Below are positions 4,603 to 13,069 of a stretch of 17,790 bases of DNA, piece after piece. How positions within the stretch are numbered: position 1 is the first letter of the stretch; each line of letters begins with the position of its first letter. The notes beneath the pieces are model-generated. The model was not told where the DNA came from. It worked only from the letters and a program-made list of their open reading frames with translations, and did not search any database. The stretch is from Spirochaetaceae bacterium (GTDB taxonomy: Bacteria > Spirochaetota > Spirochaetia > Treponematales > Treponemataceae). The position numbers and the translations under genes were made by a program. The stretch is taken from positions 1 through 17,790 of the forward strand of contig JAGCMR010000108.1 in the NCBI GenBank assembly GCA_017646305.1. The letters are read 5' to 3'.

Positions 4603-5871
4603 TTATCTTATCTTTCTTAAAAAGGAATCTTTGAATCCAAGATTTTTGAATCGAGCTAAAACGGCTCCATATTCATCAACATTTAAAGGTCCTACCATCA
4701 TCTGCATAGCCTTGCCATTTTTCAGGGGAACCATTACGAAGGGATATTTACTACCATATTCCTTCAAAAGTCGGTCGATGTTTTCCTGCTCTGCAAAGGT
4801 AGCCACCTGTATATAATACTTGCCAGATTCCAGCTCAGAAAGGGATTTTACCATACCCTTCTGATTTGTTGTGATACTGGAAGGAGTTACATTCTCTACC
4901 ACCTTATTTTCTACAGGTACTGGAACAAAGGTAGAAACTGCTTCCTCGACAGGTGTAGTTTCCTCTGGTGGATTTTCCTCCGCTGGAACCAGAATAATGG
5001 GAGCAAAGGGATCTACTAAGGAAGAATCATCTGCTGCCAAATATTCGTCTGCCAAGGAGGTATCTTCTGTATATGGCCACTCTTCTGAAGCTTCCATTTC
5101 TGGTTCAGCAGGAATCAAAACAATTTCTTCAGCTTCTTCACTATCATCTGCTTCTGTAATTTCTTCAGTAGGCTCTTCCTCTGTGGAAACTTCTGCCAAC
5201 TCTGGTTCAGTTTCAAATCCTGTGAAGGGATCCTCACTTAAAGATTCCACAATATAAACAGGATCATGTTCTGCCAGTACGTGATTCATTGGTACTTCTT
5301 CCACAGCGGTAACGTTATAGTCTGAAACTTCATCTTGAGCCTCAGCTTCAGGGGCTGTGGTTTCTGGCAAGGAAGCCTCTGTTGTATCTTTTGCCATGTC
5401 TTCTGTTGTACTGGCAGTTCCCAGAGTTTCATCTAAAGATCTTAACTTTGAATCTAAATCATCTTTTACTTGGTTAGGTAAAAGGGTATCGCTGGGGGTA
5501 TCTGATACCAATGTACCAGTACCAGAACCTGCTTCGTCTAGCATTCCAGTTCGTTTAGTAAGCTTTACCTGGGTATTTGAATCAGGTGTAATAAAAAGCT
5601 TGTCTGCAGCTTCTGGAGAAAGAAGAATGGCAACACCAGCAGAGGGGTCAATGGAACCGAGAATCAACACATTAATGGTTATTCCTGTGGCAGGATTGGT
5701 AACACTTACGCTGTCTCCAGGAAGATATCCAACTGTCTTTGCAAACAATCCTGCAGGGAGAACACCTTCTTCAGCAACTACTGCCCGTCCATCTAATGAA
5801 GGTTTAGAGGTGGCAAAGGTAATGCTTACAGTTAATGAAATAATTAGCAGTGAAAAAATAAACCGTCTCAT
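4603..5871 (-). CDS. Exported RlpA-like protein with SPOR domain
   Basis: 422 aa. Signal peptide at residues 1-20 (MRRFIFSLLIISLTVSITFA, ending near ATSKP). Residues about 28-107 resemble the double-psi beta-barrel of RlpA (LPAGLFAKTVGYLPGDSVSVTN, then INVLILG, then ILLSPEAADKLF). Residues about 115-345 are a low-complexity, very acidic Glu/Ser/Thr/Pro linker that twice contains an IXLXPAE segment (250-256, 291-297). Residues 349-421 form a SPOR domain (YYIQVATFAEQENIDRLLKEY), which binds denuded septal peptidoglycan. RlpA enzymes cleave naked glycan strands, but the usual NDRGP catalytic segment is replaced here by ILGSIDPSAG, so activity is doubtful and a structural role in the periplasm is more likely. 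The start is 18 nt after the upstream gene's stop, with AAGGA in front. Confidence 0.75.
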   Translation of the reverse strand: MRRFIFSLLIISLTVSITFATSKPSLDGRAVVAEEGVLPAGLFAKTVGYLPGDSVSVTNPATGITINVLILGSIDPSAGVAILLSPEAADKLFITPDSNTQVKLTKRTGMLDEAGSGTGTLVSDTPSDTLLPNQVKDDLDSKLRSLDETLGTASTTEDMAKDTTEASLPETTAPEAEAQDEVSDYNVTAVEEVPMNHVLAEHDPVYIVESLSEDPFTGFETEPELAEVSTEEEPTEEITEADDSEEAEEIVLIPAEPEMEASEEWPYTEDTSLADEYLAADDSSLVDPFAPIILVPAEENPPEETTPVEEAVSTFVPVPVENKVVENVTPSSITTNQKGMVKSLSELESGKYYIQVATFAEQENIDRLLKEYGSKYPFVMVPLKNGKAMQMMVGPLNVDEYGAVLARFKNLGFKDSFLRKIR

Positions 5872-5889
5872 AATCTATCCTTCTTTTTC

Positions 5890-6408
5890 TTAGTTTTTCT
5901 TCCGTAGTGCAGTATTAATAACCTTTGCCAATTGCTGTCCAAAGGTACTAATCCCTCTTTCAGAGTTATCTATTTGTACTAGCTGACCAGGTTTTTCTGT
6001 TCCTGCATCAATCTGCTGTCTGTCCCGAACTTTTACCAAGCTCCATTGGACTAGTTCAATGTTAGAAAGGAGATTAGCCTCTGCTGCAGTAGATTTTTTT
6101 CGGTCAAAATAAACGGTAATGTATGCAAGGTAATCAGCACTGCCGTTAATTGCATCCTCCAAGGAGATAATCATACCGTTTTGTGCCTTTTCCTTATTAT
6201 AGATAACAGGTGAATTAGATACAATGTAACCTTGTGAAAACATAAAATCCATAATGCTTTCTTCTATCAGCAATGAGGAATCAGTTACATTTCCATGGGC
6301 TTCATCCATTTGTACAATCTGAACAGAAATCGTAGTTGCACCTAAAGGCAAAGCAACAAGACTAAAAAGGAGACAAATCCCCCATATAAGCGGCTTTTTT
6401 TTATTCAT
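5890..6408 (-). CDS. Exported protein of unknown function
   Basis: 172 aa from the ATG at 6408, which is preceded by a G-rich ribosome-binding site (GGGGGTGGGA, 6418-6409); a GTG two codons earlier (6414) overlaps that site and is less likely. N-terminal signal peptide (MNKKKPLIWGICLLFSLVALPLGA). The mature part has alternating hydrophobic residues and the segments SLLIEESIMDFMFSQGYIVSN, ADYLAYITVYFDRK, NIELVQWSLVKVRDRQ and a C-terminal helix FGQQLAKVINTALRKK. This resembles the small alpha/beta domain seen in envelope proteins that scan outer-membrane assembly or lipoprotein partners, but I do not recognise the family. First gene of an operon with the SPOR protein, suggesting a shared role at the cell wall. 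Confidence 0.75.
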   Translation of the reverse strand: MNKKKPLIWGICLLFSLVALPLGATTISVQIVQMDEAHGNVTDSSLLIEESIMDFMFSQGYIVSNSPVIYNKEKAQNGMIISLEDAINGSADYLAYITVYFDRKKSTAAEANLLSNIELVQWSLVKVRDRQQIDAGTEKPGQLVQIDNSERGISTFGQQLAKVINTALRKKN

Positions 6409-6567
6409 TCCCACCCCCAGACAACAAAATGTGTCGTCAGAATACTCCTTTTCCCTATGAAATCCTATTAGCTTTTGAAAAAAGGAGTTTTAATTAGTAT
6501 ACCTTACATTTTAAAGGATACCTTTTTATATATCGACTTTTTTTTTTTCGGGATTAGAATTAGTTGT

Positions 6568-6637: not shown

Positions 6638-6715
6638 TTCGCTATATGAATTGTTATATGATTCATTATTTATTGAATTGAGTAAGTGTATTTAGAAACT
6701 GTATCCCCTTATTTC

Positions 6716-6761
6716 GGAGTATATCTTCGGAAGATACTCCTTCAAAAGAGCCTCTTCCGAA
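6716..6761 (+). promoter_or_regulatory. Leader RNA with two mutually exclusive hairpins
   Basis: Hairpin A pairs GGAGTAT (6716-6722) with ATACTCC (6734-6740), continued by CTT/AAG after a 2-nt bulge. Hairpin B pairs TTCGGAAGA (6726-6734) with TCTTCCGAA (6753-6761), nine perfect pairs. They share 6726-6734 and cannot form together. No T run follows, so any control would act on translation or RNA stability, not on termination. No known riboswitch class is recognised. Confidence 0.4.
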
Positions 6762-6783
6762 CTAAGTAAAAATGTGTGTCTGT

Positions 6784-6789
6784 GGGAGG
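6784..6789 (+). promoter_or_regulatory. Ribosome-binding site that fixes the dehydratase start
   Basis: GGGAGG five bases before GTG at 6795. The upstream in-frame GTG at 6774 has no such site and would translate through it, so 6795 is preferred. Confidence 0.75.
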
Positions 6790-6794
6790 TAGTT

Positions 6795-8279
6795 GTGATT
6801 GGGCAGACTGGAAAGAAATTATACATCATTGGGGCTGGCTTTGCGGGCCAAATGATTGCCGAGGAAATTGGGCGCAAAAAAATTTTTGGTCGTGTGGTGG
6901 CCTTTCTTGACGATGATGCCAATATAATCGGTTCAGAGATTGATGGAATTCCTGTATTGGGGCCCATCGACAAAACAATTCCTATTTTAGGATTTGAAGA
7001 TGGTGATGAGGCTATTATTGCCATGCCCAGCACTCCAAATGACAGAATCAGAACAGTGTATGATTGTCTTCGAAAACGAGGTTTTAGTCGCATTAAGATT
7101 CTCCCTGCCATCTCCCAGATTGTAGACGGAAGTGCTCATTTTATTCAAACGAGAGAAATTGATCCCTTAGATATTCTTGGTCGTACCCCGGTAACAATTC
7201 CTTTAAAAAAGAGTCTTGCTTACCTGCGTGGACGGCGAGTACTGATTACTGGTGCAGGTGGTTCCATTGGCTCTGAGTTAGCCCGCCAGCTTTTGTCTGG
7301 AGGTGCACAGCGGCTGTACCTTTTGGGCCACGGAGAAAATTCCATCTACTTGATTGATCGTGAGCTGAGAACCTTGCAGCGAGAGGGAGTGGGGGAAAAG
7401 GCTACCATTATTCCTATTATTGGAGACTTGAAGGATAGAGAATATACTCGCCACATTGTTTCTAAGCTACGGTGTGATGTGATTTTTCATTGTGCTGCCT
7501 ACAAGCATGTTCCCTTGATGGAGGAAAATCCTGTAGCAGTTATAGAAAATAATGTTTTTGGAACAAAGAATTTACTAGATGCAGCCTTGGAAAATGGAGT
7601 CCATCGTTTTGTGCTTATTTCCACCGATAAAGCTGTATCTCCTGTTTCCGTGTATGGTGTGTCAAAGATGCTTTGCGAGAAGCTTGTGCTGGATGCTGCC
7701 AGTAAGGCTCGGGTACAGGATTCCTTTATGTTTGTTCGCTTTGGCAATGTGCTTGGTTCACGGGGCTCTGTGCTACCAGTGTTTATGGACCAGCTGAAAG
7801 CAGGCTTGCCTCTTACCGTAACCCATCCTGAGATGAAGCGCTTTTTTATGACCATTCCAGAGGCCTGTTCCTTGGTGCTAGAAACTGGTGGCGTGGGACA
7901 AAATGGTTCCACCTATCTTTTAGATATGGGTGAGCCAATAAAAATTCTTGAGTTAGCTGAACAGGTGATTCGCTTTTCTGGCTATGAGCCCTACAAGGAT
8001 GTAGATATTATCTTGACTGGGCTACGAAAGGGGGAGCGACTGGACGAGCCTTTGTGGTTGGATGAGGAGGATCCTACTCCAACGGAATATCCTAAAATTT
8101 TACGTTTACGTAGCACTTCCATGGGAGAAAGCTTGCAGACATTGTTGGATAAATTAGCTCCAACATGTATTTTTAATCCCGCCAAGGCAGAATTGTATCG
8201 AAACTCAGAGTATCTTGTACAGACTCTTTGTGATGCAGTTCCTTCGTTAAAGGAGTTTTACGATGAGCAAGGTCGTTAA
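6795..8279 (+). CDS. NDP-sugar 4,6-dehydratase-like SDR (CapD/FlaA1/PglF type, soluble)
   Basis: 494 aa from GTG at 6795. Two Rossmann domains: residues about 8-120 (LYIIGAGFAGQ, then AFLDDD) and the catalytic SDR domain from about 146 (LITGAGGSIGSELARQL, FHCAAYKHVPLME, STDKAVSPVSVYGVSK, FVRFGNVLGSRGSVLPVF, RFFMTIPEA). This is the layout of CapD/WbpM/PglF enzymes that turn UDP-GlcNAc into the 4-keto-6-deoxy sugar, but the four N-terminal membrane helices of those proteins are absent. The SDR tyrosine is present (Y287 in YGVSK), whereas membrane-type PglF/WbpM have methionine there. With the aminotransferase next door, the likely product is a 4-amino-4,6-dideoxy sugar nucleotide for glycan synthesis. 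It overlaps the next gene by 17 nt. Confidence 0.88.
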   Translation: MIGQTGKKLYIIGAGFAGQMIAEEIGRKKIFGRVVAFLDDDANIIGSEIDGIPVLGPIDKTIPILGFEDGDEAIIAMPSTPNDRIRTVYDCLRKRGFSRIKILPAISQIVDGSAHFIQTREIDPLDILGRTPVTIPLKKSLAYLRGRRVLITGAGGSIGSELARQLLSGGAQRLYLLGHGENSIYLIDRELRTLQREGVGEKATIIPIIGDLKDREYTRHIVSKLRCDVIFHCAAYKHVPLMEENPVAVIENNVFGTKNLLDAALENGVHRFVLISTDKAVSPVSVYGVSKMLCEKLVLDAASKARVQDSFMFVRFGNVLGSRGSVLPVFMDQLKAGLPLTVTHPEMKRFFMTIPEACSLVLETGGVGQNGSTYLLDMGEPIKILELAEQVIRFSGYEPYKDVDIILTGLRKGERLDEPLWLDEEDPTPTEYPKILRLRSTSMGESLQTLLDKLAPTCIFNPAKAELYRNSEYLVQTLCDAVPSLKEFYDEQGR

Positions 8280-9528
8280 TGGGCAGCAGTCCTTTGATTT
8301 TATTCCCTTTTCTGTACCTGCCATTGGGGAGGAAGAAAAGGCTGCAGTACTTCGTGTAATGGATTCTGGATGGCTCACCACTGCCAAAGAAGCCTTAGCC
8401 TTTGAACAGGAATTTGCTCGTTATGTTAGTGATTTTCAAGGAGGACAGACTCCTCATGAAATTAAGGCTCTGGCGGTGAATAGTGCTACTAGTGGCTTGC
8501 AGCTGGCCTATCATGCCTGTGGCGTAGGGGATGACGCGCTTATAGGTGGTATTGGCCATTTAGGAAAACAATTTTCTACGCCGGGAAAAATCCTTACGAC
8601 CCCCTATACCTTTGTGTCCACCGCCACTGCTGCCTGTCACCTTGGTGGTGGAGTGGTGTATGCCGATGTAGAAGCTGATGGCTACAACATAGACCCAGTT
8701 CAGGTGGAGCAAAAGCTTACCCAAGACAAGGATATTCGGGCGGTGGTTCCAGTGCATATTGCAGGTCTTCCCTGCAACATGGAAGAGATTTGTGCCGTTG
8801 CAGCAAAATACGGAGTGCCAGTGGTGGAGGATGCAGCCCACGCCTTTCCTTCAAAGACAAAAAATGGCTACGCTGGAACCTTAGGTGACATTGGCGTATA
8901 TTCCTTCTATGCCACAAAAACCATTACCACGGCGGAAGGTGGCATGGTTTGCACAAAAAATCCTGAGTATTACAAGTTTATGTCTACCATGAGAATGCAC
9001 GGTATAGACCGACCAGTTTGGAACCGTTACACCTCAGAAAAGGCATCTTGGGAATATGATGTGGTAGCTCCTGGCTATAAGTTTAATTTACCAGATGTAT
9101 TGGCCGCCATGGGACGGGTGCAGTTGCAGAAAGCTGATGTACTTTTCCAGCAGAGAAAAGCCATTGCTCATCAGTATAATCAAGCCTTTGCAGATTGTGA
9201 CTTTCTTCAATTACCTCCCGACGGAGATGGTAATGCTTGGCATTTATATTTTCTTCGAGTAGTGCCAGAAAAATTAAAGCTTACTCGCAATGAGTTCACC
9301 CAAAAGCTCCAGGAAGCAGGATTGGGAATCTCCATGCATTTTATTCCTCATTTCCGTCTCTCCTATCTTCGTAATCGGTTTGATTTACATTCAGAGGATT
9401 ATCCTAATGCCCAAAAACGCTTTGAAACAAGCTTTTCTCTTCCATTTTGGCCAGGTATGAGCCAAGAGATGGTGGAACGGGTCATTGATACAGTGGTAAC
9501 CTTAGGACGGAAATATTATGGCAACTAA
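8263..9528 (+). CDS. DegT/DnrJ/EryC1-family sugar aminotransferase
   Basis: 421 aa, PLP-dependent, fold type I. Motifs: SGWLTT (35-40), NSATSGLQLAY (73-83), TPYTFVST (113-120), VPVHIAGLP (162-170), VVEDAAHAF (187-195, D190 contacts the PLP nitrogen), and SFYATKTITTAEGGM (214-228) with Schiff-base K219. Members transfer an amino group from glutamate to a 3- or 4-keto sugar nucleotide; the preceding dehydratase would supply a 4-keto-6-deoxy substrate. About 16 extra residues appear between the GVG turn and TPYTF (89-111) compared with the common form. AAGGAG lies eight bases before the ATG. Its start overlaps the upstream gene by 17 nt and its end overlaps the next gene by 11 nt, which implies translational coupling. 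Confidence 0.92.
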   Translation: MSKVVNGQQSFDFIPFSVPAIGEEEKAAVLRVMDSGWLTTAKEALAFEQEFARYVSDFQGGQTPHEIKALAVNSATSGLQLAYHACGVGDDALIGGIGHLGKQFSTPGKILTTPYTFVSTATAACHLGGGVVYADVEADGYNIDPVQVEQKLTQDKDIRAVVPVHIAGLPCNMEEICAVAAKYGVPVVEDAAHAFPSKTKNGYAGTLGDIGVYSFYATKTITTAEGGMVCTKNPEYYKFMSTMRMHGIDRPVWNRYTSEKASWEYDVVAPGYKFNLPDVLAAMGRVQLQKADVLFQQRKAIAHQYNQAFADCDFLQLPPDGDGNAWHLYFLRVVPEKLKLTRNEFTQKLQEAGLGISMHFIPHFRLSYLRNRFDLHSEDYPNAQKRFETSFSLPFWPGMSQEMVERVIDTVVTLGRKYYGN

Positions 9529-11635
9529 AAGGAAGGCTTCTGGAAAGCACTTAGTTGATTTTGCCTCATCCTTTTTCTCTGACTTACGTCTTCCCAACAT
9601 GGTGTATGGTGTGCTGATTCGCAGTCCATTACCGAGAGGTAAAATCAGATCTATTTCCCATCCTCAGCTTCCTGAAGATTACTTCTTGTACACTGCCAAG
9701 GATATCCCTGGCTCAAAAACTATTTCCCTGTTGGGAACAGAAATTCCCTTGCTTGCTCAAGAAGAAGTTGCCTACCAAGGGGAACCTTTAGCAATTTTGG
9801 TGGGACCAGACAAGCTGAAAGTTGCTCAATTATCCAAGGAAGTAATTATCCGATTCCATAGATTGGAGGAAGGAGTAGGGTTTTCTGAATCCATTGAAAA
9901 TCAAAATATTATTTCCCAGAGGACTGTAGAAGCAGGAAGCGATGCAGAATTGTTTTTTGCAGAGGCTGACATTCAAGTAGAAGGAAACTATTCTAGTAAT
10001 TGCTATTGTTCCCATTGTGGAGAAACTGCTGGAGGCATTGCACTCTACCAAGATAACCGATTGATTTTATATGCTCCAGTGCAGTGGTTTAGTCAAGTTC
10101 GTCGTTCCATTGCTGCAGGATTAGGTATTTCTCCAGAGCAGGTAGAAATACGAAAAACCCTTGTGGCTGGTGGTAATAATAGCTCTCAGTGGTATTTTGC
10201 TATTTTGTCTGCTCAGATGGCTGTTGCTGCTTATTTATGTGGTAAGCCAGTAAAAATGTTATTTTCTCGAGAGGAACAAGGCTTGTATTACGAGCGGCCA
10301 GCTCCAGTAATGGTGAGTTATCGTAGTTCAGTTTCTCCAGAAGGAAAGATTTTGGCCATGATTGTGTCCATTGTTTTGGATACAGGAATCTACAACCCCT
10401 TTATCCAGGAGCTGATGAACAGATTGATTGTGGCTGCAGTTGGAGTCTATAATCCTGCTGTTTACAAAATAGAAGCTTATGCTATTCAGTCTCAAACTCC
10501 TCCTACGGCTTTAACCCTGCAGCGGATGGACAGTCAGATTTTCTTTGCTTTGGAATCACATTTGTCTGAAATTGCTCACAAGGTTGGAAAAATGCCCCAT
10601 GAAGTTCGCCTTTTGAACCATGAAAGTGAGCCTATCAAGCCTTTTAAGTTCAATTTTACTTATTTGGAACGGGTACTGCGAGCTGTGGTGGACAAAAGCA
10701 GCTTCCAAAGAAAATATTGGTCATACAACCTTTCTCAAAAGGATTCCTATGAAAAAAAGCTGACCAGTCCCGTTCCTATTCGTGGTATAGGTGTTTCCTG
10801 TGGTTTTGAAGGAAGCGGCTTTTTAGGTGCAATTCGCTATATTCAAGATCTTACCATGGGGCTGACCCTAGAAAAGGATGGAACGGTGGTAATTCACTCA
10901 TATCCTCCTTCCTCCTGGGTACAACGGGTATGGATAAAGATTGTATCTAAAGAGCTAGATGTGGAGGAAAAAAATATCCGCATTGACGGAAACTTTTCTG
11001 TAGATACAGAACCTCTGTATCCTGCTGGATTCTTTGGAAATGTAGGCCTTATGACTCAGCTGTTACGAAAGGCTTGTACAGCAATCCAAAAAAAACGATT
11101 TCAGCAGCCTTTGCCTATTCATGTGTCACGGGGGCTTACCAGTACACAAAAGAAGCAATGGGATTCAGAGAATTTTTCTGGCTCTCCCTTTTTTTCCACT
11201 GCTACTGGTGCTGCCGTGGTGGAAGTGGAGCTGGATCTCTTTACCTATCGAACCCTAATTCGTGGTATCTGGATTGCAGTGGAAGGTGGTGAAATTCTAT
11301 CTCCTGAGCGGGCTGTGGCCACCATTAAGGCTGCTGTACGTGAAAGCATACAGGAATTGGTAACTTGGGAAGAAATGGAAGTAATGGATATTTTTGTGGA
11401 GTTACTTCCTGGAAGTAAGGAACCAAAGCAGCTGGGAACCTTGGTATATTCTTTGTTGCCTTCTGCTATATCTTCTGCTATTTCTCAAGCCTGCAATAAG
11501 GCAATTTCAAGCATTCCCCTTCAAAGTGACTATGTTTACAAAGCCTTTTCAGCCCAGCCAAAGAGTCAGTCAGTAGAAACGAAACAGTCTGGAGTGGCTA
11601 GAGGAGGAGGGGAGTTGCAGGAGGTATCAGAATGA
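9518..11635 (+). CDS. Xanthine dehydrogenase-like large subunit, degenerate molybdenum site
   Basis: 705 aa. Residues 27-115 match the small a/b hammerhead domain (MVYGVLIRSPLPRGKIRSI, EVAYQGEPLAILV) and the rest follows the molybdopterin-binding domain order (AAYLCGKPVKMLFSREE; ALESHLSEIAHKVGKMPHEVRLLN; ATGAAVVEVELD; LLPSAISSAISQA). The usual cofactor loops are changed: VGGGFGGK is VAGGNNSSQ (216-224), the RGFG loop is LTLQRM (332-337), the QGQG loop is PPSSWVQ (463-469), and no glutamate remains at the GVGEP position (638-648). An unusual CXCXXC (C162, C164, C167) replaces the LEPH region. It is probably not a normal Mo hydroxylase; related T. pallidum genes have been annotated quinoline 2-oxidoreductase (from memory). 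Coupled to both neighbours by overlaps of 11 and 4 nt. Confidence 0.8.
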   Translation: MATKRKASGKHLVDFASSFFSDLRLPNMVYGVLIRSPLPRGKIRSISHPQLPEDYFLYTAKDIPGSKTISLLGTEIPLLAQEEVAYQGEPLAILVGPDKLKVAQLSKEVIIRFHRLEEGVGFSESIENQNIISQRTVEAGSDAELFFAEADIQVEGNYSSNCYCSHCGETAGGIALYQDNRLILYAPVQWFSQVRRSIAAGLGISPEQVEIRKTLVAGGNNSSQWYFAILSAQMAVAAYLCGKPVKMLFSREEQGLYYERPAPVMVSYRSSVSPEGKILAMIVSIVLDTGIYNPFIQELMNRLIVAAVGVYNPAVYKIEAYAIQSQTPPTALTLQRMDSQIFFALESHLSEIAHKVGKMPHEVRLLNHESEPIKPFKFNFTYLERVLRAVVDKSSFQRKYWSYNLSQKDSYEKKLTSPVPIRGIGVSCGFEGSGFLGAIRYIQDLTMGLTLEKDGTVVIHSYPPSSWVQRVWIKIVSKELDVEEKNIRIDGNFSVDTEPLYPAGFFGNVGLMTQLLRKACTAIQKKRFQQPLPIHVSRGLTSTQKKQWDSENFSGSPFFSTATGAAVVEVELDLFTYRTLIRGIWIAVEGGEILSPERAVATIKAAVRESIQELVTWEEMEVMDIFVELLPGSKEPKQLGTLVYSLLPSAISSAISQACNKAISSIPLQSDYVYKAFSAQPKSQSVETKQSGVARGGGELQEVSE

Positions 11636-12165
11636 AAATACCTATTACCATAAACGGAGAAATGATGGTGTTGGAGGCTCATCCCTCCATGACCCTTTTA
11701 GATGTTTTACGCCGAGAGGGCTTTATTTCTGCAAAGCTCGGATGTTCTCAAGGACGCTGTGGTTCCTGTACTGTCTTGATGGACGGTAAGGCTATTCCCA
11801 CCTGTATTATTCCCTTTGTGGCTACTCGTGATGCCTCTATTGTAACTATGGAGCAGTTTTCCAAAACAAAGGAATATGAGCTGATTATAGAATCCTTTGA
11901 AAAGGCTGGAATCAAGCTTTGTGGCTTTTGTAATGCAGGAAAAATTCTTGGAACCTATAGTCTTATTTCAACCCACCAACGACCTTCTCATCAGCTGATT
12001 TACGATATGGTACGCCATTTTGATTGTAGCTGTACGGAGCAAGATGGTTTGATACAGGCTATTGTTTACGCTGTAGCTGCTTTCCAAAGCTATGCCCATA
12101 AGCGACAGGAAAAAGAAAAGAAATTAAACAGGACTAATAAAAATGGACGAAAAGGAAAGAACTAA
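11632..12165 (+). CDS. Xanthine dehydrogenase-like [2Fe-2S] small subunit
   Basis: 177 aa. Ferredoxin-like N-terminal domain with the plant-type cluster ligands C38, C43, C46 and C58 (GCSQGRCGSCTV), then the four-helix domain with C97, C100, C132 and C134 (LCGFCNAGK, FDCSC) for the second cluster. All eight cysteines are kept, so it should still carry two [2Fe-2S] centres and pass electrons between the large and FAD subunits. The glutamine that normally precedes CGFC and touches the pterin cofactor is leucine here, matching the loss of cofactor loops in the large subunit. The tail after residue 155 is lysine-rich and longer than usual. ATGA overlap with the upstream stop; AGGAGG precedes the start. 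It overlaps the next gene by 23 nt. Confidence 0.92.
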   Translation: MKIPITINGEMMVLEAHPSMTLLDVLRREGFISAKLGCSQGRCGSCTVLMDGKAIPTCIIPFVATRDASIVTMEQFSKTKEYELIIESFEKAGIKLCGFCNAGKILGTYSLISTHQRPSHQLIYDMVRHFDCSCTEQDGLIQAIVYAVAAFQSYAHKRQEKEKKLNRTNKNGRKGKN

Positions 12166-13069
12166 AGACGTTTATTTTGGAACCAGTCTTGATGAGGTGC
12201 TTTATCAGCTGAGAAATAGATCAAATCTAAAGATTTGTGGCGGTTGTACCTATCTTAGGGAGTTGCCTCCTGTTTCTATGATTATCAGAAACATTAAGGA
12301 GTTTAATCTCATTGAAAAACGGGAACGATATATCGAAATCGGTTCCGGTGTTACCCTTGCCTCTATTATGGAGCTAGGAGAAAAGCATATTCCTCCCGTT
12401 TTTTATCAGGCCCTCAGTTCTATTGCTACGCCACTGGTGCGAAATATAGCTACTTTGGGAGGAAATATTTGTATTGAGCCCCTTTGTGGAACACTTTTTG
12501 CTCCGTTACTGGCTATGGATGCAAAGCTGGAGTTTCGGATTAATTCAGAGATTCTTTCCCTACCTATGACCCAGTTTTCTACCTTTGAAACTGGTAATCT
12601 AGTTCCTGCGGGAAGTGTGCTTACCAAGGTACGTGTTCCTCTAGATGATTGGGAATTGTCTGTGTTCCGACGTATCGGCCCTTCATGGACATTAAATGAA
12701 AATTGTGCTTCTTATGCTTTTTTAGCAAGTATCCAAAAGGAAACCCTCATGAACCTGAGAATTGCTTTCTGTGGAGCAATTCGATTACGGAGTCGTGAAT
12801 TAGAAAATAAGCTCATTGGAACAAAGCTTCCTCTATCTCCCAGAGAAATTCAAGACATGTTGGAAGCTGCAGCTGAGTACTTCGATCAGCAGGTGCAGTC
12901 TTTCTTCTTTGTTCAACAGTCTACTGGGGGAGAAAAAAAACTTATTCACGATGACTGTTCTCTTCTCGGGGAACATCTTTCTTCTTGTAGAATTTCTTCT
13001 GTAGATTTTTCTCTGCTAAAAGCCCGTTTTTTAGGATTATTGCAGGAATCCCTTAATCATTTGGCATAA
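12143..13069 (+). CDS. Xanthine dehydrogenase-like FAD-binding subunit
   Basis: 308 aa, the usual size of the medium (CoxM/XdhB) subunit. The first FAD motif, normally AGGTDL, is ICGGCTYL (31-38); the second, ATLGGN, is intact at 103-108, followed by a normal IXXXXXXGTLFAPLLAM (111-125). A CO-dehydrogenase-flavoprotein-like C-terminal domain follows from about 190 (FRRIGPSW, LRIAFCGAIRLRSRELE). It would accept electrons from the [2Fe-2S] subunit and hand them to NAD or another carrier in the cytoplasm. It is the last gene of the five-gene operon; no plus-strand terminator is evident after it and the next gene is convergent. The start lies inside the previous gene, with AGGA about ten bases upstream. 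Confidence 0.88.
   Translation: MDEKERTKDVYFGTSLDEVLYQLRNRSNLKICGGCTYLRELPPVSMIIRNIKEFNLIEKRERYIEIGSGVTLASIMELGEKHIPPVFYQALSSIATPLVRNIATLGGNICIEPLCGTLFAPLLAMDAKLEFRINSEILSLPMTQFSTFETGNLVPAGSVLTKVRVPLDDWELSVFRRIGPSWTLNENCASYAFLASIQKETLMNLRIAFCGAIRLRSRELENKLIGTKLPLSPREIQDMLEAAAEYFDQQVQSFFFVQQSTGGEKKLIHDDCSLLGEHLSSCRISSVDFSLLKARFLGLLQESLNHLA

Follow-up and report, generated by a model that had tools for sequence, protein, structure and literature searches.

Xanthine Dehydrogenase Relatives That Lack the Molybdenum Site, Encoded Together with Likely Amino-Sugar Enzymes in Spirochetes

Introduction

Molybdenum hydroxylases are a textbook enzyme family, defined by their cofactor. Why would a spirochete keep genes for the three subunits of such an enzyme in one operon with genes for amino-sugar synthesis? 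The question is raised by a 17,790-nucleotide stretch of contig JAGCMR010000108.1 (assembly GCA_017646305.1, from a treponeme-like Spirochaetaceae bacterium), called the window here. In it, five overlapping genes unite two likely amino-sugar enzymes (the pair) with three relatives of xanthine dehydrogenase subunits (the trio):

6795 to 8279, + strand: nucleotide-sugar 4,6-dehydratase, CapD/PseB-like (start GTG 6795; alternative GTG 6774)
8263 to 9528, + strand: pyridoxal phosphate (PLP) aminotransferase, DegT/PseC-like (PLP lysine K219, in SFYATKT)
9518 to 11635, + strand: large subunit, xanthine dehydrogenase fold, molybdenum-cofactor residues lost (W190 and W225 close to the old molybdenum site)
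11632 to 12165, + strand: two-cluster [2Fe-2S] subunit (ligands C38, C43, C46, C58 and C97, C100, C132, C134)
12143 to 13069, + strand: flavin adenine dinucleotide (FAD) subunit, XdhB/CoxM type (ATLGGN motif retained)

The five + strand open reading frames (ORFs; 6774-8279, 8263-9528, 9518-11635, 11632-12165 and 12143-13069) overlap by 17 (8263-8279), 11 (9518-9528), 4 (11632-11635) and 23 nt (12143-12165), and an AAGGAG lies at 8250-8255, ahead of the ATG of the aminotransferase. This gene set and these overlaps are exactly those given by the original prediction, which was made from the letters of the window and took GTG 6795 as the dehydratase start.

What we can state most safely is that the trio represents a lineage within the xanthine dehydrogenase family that does without molybdenum, evolved once and is tied to an amino-sugar operon. 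We also consider it possible, if short of probable, that the trio, predicted to form a molybdenum-free flavin/iron-sulfur complex, exchanges electrons in one direction or the other with a sugar intermediate of the operon's pathway, probably one for a nonulosonic acid.

Results

Searching for the large subunit in a single genome of each species gave 253 relatives. The best 80 loci, from Treponema or other, mostly uncultured, spirochetes, were retained, and 60 further stretches were taken across the lower score range, giving 140 loci (L numbers). A phylum sample held 392 genomes (G numbers), 222 of which match the large-subunit profile at 1e-10; this number counts canonical relatives as well. 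Viral contigs were also scanned and yielded nothing. Loci L049, L065, L124 and L128 were excluded from large-subunit counts for stops in the joined frame; an apparent fused protein of 1078 aa in G113 was rejected as an upstream extension of the reading frame.

The predicted structure model of the large subunit matches the xanthine dehydrogenase fold, and Pfam places the protein in the same family (MoCoBD_1, 120 bits; MoCoBD_2, 39.5; Ald_Xan_dh_C, 33). The active site tells a different story. Equivalents of bovine E802, R912, Q1040 and E1261 are present in 0, 0, 1 and 50 of 134 rows, respectively, and the window has Q224, L334, S466 and T641 at these positions. We judged molybdenum-cofactor biosynthesis in the relatives' genomes by a match to MoeA (MoeA_N). 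No MoeA match was found in 87 of 103 host genomes, and the closest relatives (G001-G004) had no MoeA_N match. The original prediction had argued for molybdenum independence from a supposed absence of the pathway alone. The lost binding residues now strengthen that claim, and a constant association with molybdenum-cofactor biosynthesis, which would have spoken against it, is not what the host genomes show.

Could the trio still be an ordinary molybdenum hydroxylase, with a cofactor made or acquired in some other way? The Pfam placement, agreeing weak NCBIfam matches and MoeA in 16 of the 103 carriers would fit this, as would the E1261 equivalent where it remains and that of R880 (R302 in the window), retained in 94 of 134 rows. 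However, the losses of E802, R912 and Q1040 also hold in genomes having MoeA, and a second family member was not seen in 48 of 50 genomes. On the residues and the host genomes we rejected this explanation as extremely improbable. Separately, L171 and L172 (genome G421, 3.59-Mb contig) have canonical molybdenum motifs, yet no MoeA match was found.

A quick tree was built from 86 sequences, including 12 of the 80 best loci and 58 of the 60 sampled stretches. A branch with a Shimodaira-Hasegawa-like approximate likelihood ratio (SH-aLRT) of 100 separates the 67 rows that lack the molybdenum site from the rest. These proteins have also gained residues. W190, directly after the Q767 equivalent, is found in 129 of 134 rows, and W225, directly after the E802 equivalent, in 115; R398 (128/134) and P533 (127/134) are likewise new and near-invariant. 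None of 15 canonical proteins has tryptophan at the W190 or W225 position. Since near-invariant residues were gained, a new function is favored over loss alone.

We then considered that the trio may be a decaying relic. Fast divergence, the stepwise loss of cofactor sites and a stop in the joined large-subunit frame at 4 of 140 loci point that way. The ratio of nonsynonymous to synonymous substitution (dN/dS) of the large subunit, however, lay at 0.058-0.090 for six of the pairs compared; one further pair gave 0.19, and another was saturated. Against L001, L002 and L003 the window gave 0.058, 0.071 and 0.062, values that are rough since dS exceeds 1. Values for L122/L123 (FAD subunit) and L120/L121 (iron-sulfur subunit) were left unused for frame mismatch, and L003/L004 for saturation. 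Where it can be measured, the large subunit is under purifying selection. Decay also fits poorly with the gained residues and with retention of the trio in a 1.14-Mb genome. We rejected it on dN/dS and regard it as very improbable.

The other two subunits mostly retain their cofactor sites. All eight cluster cysteines are present in the window protein (Pfam Fer2 and Fer2_2). Of 131 iron-sulfur rows, 122 have kept the two [2Fe-2S] sites complete; four of the 131 are fragments (L039, L042, L048 and L078). The FAD subunit (FAD_binding_5, 84.5 bits) retains its glycines in 128 of 131 rows, and by structure comparison its model matches FAD subunits of the xanthine oxidase family. Loss of one second-cluster cysteine in about half of the treponemes was rejected: these rows have CC replacing CxC. 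Genuine losses are found elsewhere. The first cluster has lost four of four cysteines in L152, three of four in L146 and L131, and one in L145, and L148 has lost cysteines of both clusters. The gene is still open and linked in L152 (10070-10537), as it is in L146, L131 and L148. Because all four N-terminal [2Fe-2S] cysteines are gone in L152, the chain for electrons is not complete in every lineage. In L169, an iron-sulfur match was not found.

Such losses are what one would expect if the trio were a pseudo-enzyme scaffold or sensor that has ceased to pass electrons to a substrate and holds or regulates the dehydratase and aminotransferase, perhaps by sensing flavin or redox state. Catalytic residues are lost, five lineages including L152 have dropped cluster cysteines, and divergence is far quicker in the large subunit than in the two sugar enzymes (29% identity in L152, versus 62% and 60%). 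But a mere scaffold has no need of the clusters and FAD glycines that nearly all rows keep, and the large subunit also occurs without the sugar pair. We think a scaffold quite unlikely.

The five genes are found in the same order and on the same strand in 69 of the 80 best loci; because so many relatives share the arrangement, it is not due to chance. Among the remaining loci, seven are cut by a contig end (L005, L007, L022, L039, L060, L063 and L065), a local dehydratase match is missing in L008 and L053, and both dehydratase and aminotransferase are missing in L049. L078 has the correct order by BLAST and was flagged solely through an artefact of ORF ends. The order extends to L152, on the single 1,139,633-bp contig of G106, where best hits from several queries give identities of 62, 60, 29, 41 and 42% for the five genes. 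No MoeA match was found in G106, which is probably the genome of the syphilis agent, Treponema pallidum (strain Nichols). The original prediction had named a similar order around TP0077-TP0081 of T. pallidum, and the order in L152 agrees with it. The predicted conserved linkage was thus found in most loci read; homologues unlinked in most treponemes, which would have weakened the idea, were not the pattern. Searches of open-access PMC articles turned up no spirochete study of TP0077-TP0081 and no description of a molybdenum-free trio in a sugar operon.

How far do the pair and the trio depend on each other? With an orthologue threshold of E <= 1e-120, 125 of the 392 genomes have the dehydratase, and all save G145 and G339 had a large-subunit profile match. 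Eight genomes with a weak match or none were re-read: the large subunit adjoins the pair in seven, and G339 alone lacks it while carrying LoaP and both sugar enzymes. A large-subunit relative, counted whatever its form and without regard to the iron-sulfur and FAD subunits, is therefore present in 124 of 125 dehydratase genomes. The dehydratase depends one-way on the large subunit. The converse does not hold: the large subunit lies apart in 20 genomes, six with both or one of the pair elsewhere and 14 with no orthologue of the pair. Because of these 14, the large subunit can persist without the sugar pair; their best paralogues reach up to 42% identity, and some have no match at 1e-30.

This raises the explanation that the trio performs redox chemistry without molybdenum that has nothing to do with the product of the pair, the shared operon reflecting common control, for example by LoaP. 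The 14 genomes fit it. So do L142, L153, L156 and L159, where a LoaP-like gene stands directly before the large subunit with no pair, and L136, L138, L140 and L144, where the S component of an energy-coupling factor (ECF) transporter lies directly before the molybdenum-free large subunit (by Pfam for L140 and L136, by clustering for L138 and L144). Against it stand the 124 of 125 dehydratase genomes, and also G409, G334, G372 and G378, in which the pair is located elsewhere and both pair and large subunit are retained. In G174, G069, G376, G328 and G316 it is just the dehydratase that lies elsewhere. Mapped on the tree, adjacency of at least the aminotransferase takes six changes or more, consistent with one basal gain and five losses; the linkage to the pair thus inferred for the root of the clade also speaks against an unrelated reaction. 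We consider an unrelated reaction unlikely.

In a separate group of loci, L160-L169, the trio occurs without the pair, flanked where mapped by ligA-like and dnaE/recG-like genes (named by eye); the operon in L151 and L178 is similarly placed before dnaE/recG.

What do the sugar enzymes make? The dehydratase (Polysacc_synt_2, 357 bits) carries about 150 additional, weakly Rossmann-like N-terminal residues. Its catalytic motif, T284 D285 K286 ... Y294 xxx K298 (numbered from 6774), lies in columns at least 90% conserved. The motif class is the inverting type (PMC8987622, Table 1), and TDK...YxxxK is also the motif of Pen, a 5,6-dehydratase, and of CDP-glucose dehydratase (PMC8987622). In the aminotransferase (DegT_DnrJ_EryC1, 326 bits), K219 is conserved across relatives. 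The two enzymes score 170.7 of 407.75 bits with the PseB model and 295.3 of 423.5 bits with PseC, both below equivalog cut-offs; indeed, among the matches listed, none of the five window proteins reached an NCBIfam cut-off.

NeuB-type synthases belong to nonulosonic acid pathways such as those for pseudaminic and legionaminic acid. We counted a match of at least 160 bits (E <= 1e-20) as strong. Such a match was present in 21 of 22 genomes with pair and trio (the miss being G004) and in six others with the pair elsewhere or only partly found (aminotransferase only in G394, dehydratase only in G224), 27 of 28 in total, versus 3 of the 14 genomes without an orthologous pair (Fisher, 9e-7). Weaker matches, of 27-45 bits and above the Pfam cut-off, were found in four pair-less genomes and G004. 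A NeuB-like gene lies near the operon in 10 loci, the L029 copy consisting of NeuB and SAF domains. The pathway type is probably nonulosonic acid.

The remaining features of the window lie around the operon:

6646 to 6769, + strand: remnant of a decayed LoaP-type NusG paralogue, intact in close relatives
493 to 601: 5S ribosomal RNA gene

A gene for a LoaP-like antiterminator is present in 37 of 140 loci (11 of 80 plus 26 of 60) and is intact in L001, L002, L003 and others. Apart from the four pair-less operons above, it lies directly before the dehydratase where mapped. The intact L001 gene (5686-6258) ends 5 nt before the dehydratase and scores 147.5 bits with LoaP model NF033641; the L178 copy, at 124.7, is just under the cut-off of 125. 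The window is not LoaP-led and keeps about 124 nt of remnant. A 14-15 residue match at 6696 (KLYPLISEYIF...) to the relatives' residue 53 onward, weak alone at E 0.05-0.08, is accompanied by a resemblance of the DNA near the start codon to that of L001, judged by eye. LoaP genes are reported to lie near biosynthetic operons in Spirochaetota (PMC12691694).

The operon's neighbors are glgC (+ strand) and, downstream on the opposite strand, genes for PEGA and M23 proteins. Divergent upstream (4603-6414, - strand) are genes for a SPOR-domain protein and a 174-aa protein without a family, whose clusters occur in 68 and 65 of 140 loci. A promoter and terminator scan of the operon region gave signals not far above shuffles.

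Discussion

How might the trio act on a sugar? The dehydratase, C5-inverting by motif, would form a 4-keto-6-deoxy uridine diphosphate (UDP)-amino sugar, and the aminotransferase would add an amino group at C4. The trio may assemble as in xanthine dehydrogenase, with NAD(P)H or an oxidized carrier exchanging electrons at FAD, and the emptied molybdenum pocket, with its two conserved tryptophans, might bind the sugar or a derived intermediate; these two steps are the least certain. Electrons would then pass among FAD, both clusters and the sugar intermediate in the rebuilt pocket, with a nicotinamide or some other carrier at the opposite end. A NeuB-type enzyme would later yield the nonulosonic acid, perhaps for flagellin or another envelope component. 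In its boldest form, the proposal is that a xanthine dehydrogenase trimer dropped molybdenum once and rebuilt its site around two tryptophans, giving a new type of flavin/iron-sulfur oxidoreductase for nucleotide sugars on the way to a spirochete-specific nonulosonic acid. We regard that as rather doubtful.

Several observations weigh against electron transfer to a sugar. R880 and E1261 equivalents persist in many rows, and 16 carriers have MoeA. In L136 and L138 no iron-sulfur or FAD gene adjoins the large subunit. The weightiest are the pair-less genomes and the lineages whose first cluster is broken; in these, a scaffold or a redox reaction outside the pair's pathway is favored. Eleven of the 14 pair-less genomes also lack a strong NeuB match. 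NeuB is present in five of six genomes whose best large-subunit match is canonical and so is not exclusive to operon carriers. Finally, since neither sugar enzyme reaches the cut-off of its PseB or PseC model, the product could have one of several stereochemistries.

A clade that retains the fold, the flavin and mostly the iron-sulfur clusters without the metal site, that is under purifying selection where measurable and that keeps an open gene in what is probably the reduced genome of T. pallidum, offers good ground for studying how a metalloenzyme takes up a new role. The operon offers a handle on a spirochete sugar pathway, and annotations of these proteins as xanthine dehydrogenase or quinoline 2-oxidoreductase would need correcting.

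The trio shares with the xanthine oxidase family (XdhABC/PucCDE, CoxLMS, quinoline 2-oxidoreductase) the large-subunit and FAD-subunit folds, the three-gene set, both [2Fe-2S] ligand sets and the FAD motif. It differs in lacking E802, R912 and Q1040 (one Q in 134 rows) and mostly E1261, in two tryptophans near the site, in hosts mostly without MoeA and in linkage to nucleotide-sugar enzymes. With LoaP-controlled biosynthetic operons it shares a LoaP-like leader in some relatives, whereas this gene content was not found in the papers searched and the window loaP is a remnant. In ascarylose deoxygenation, E3 is an FAD/[2Fe-2S] reductase, and a DegT-family enzyme likewise works beside flavin/iron-sulfur proteins in sugar synthesis. 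That enzyme, E1, is named as an ASAT-related 3-dehydratase (PMC8987622). The operon's DegT protein, in contrast, retains the aminotransferase PLP lysine, and its redox partners come from another family; deoxygenation of this type, with the aminotransferase as dehydrase, was set aside on that lysine. The closest parallel for the pair is the PseB/PseC/NeuB route to pseudaminic and legionaminic acids, with the TDKxnYx3K motif, a PseC-like aminotransferase and a NeuB-type synthase in related genomes, although the operon's dehydratase is N-terminally extended and both enzymes fall under equivalog cut-offs. To our knowledge, a xanthine dehydrogenase-like trio is not part of known versions of that route.

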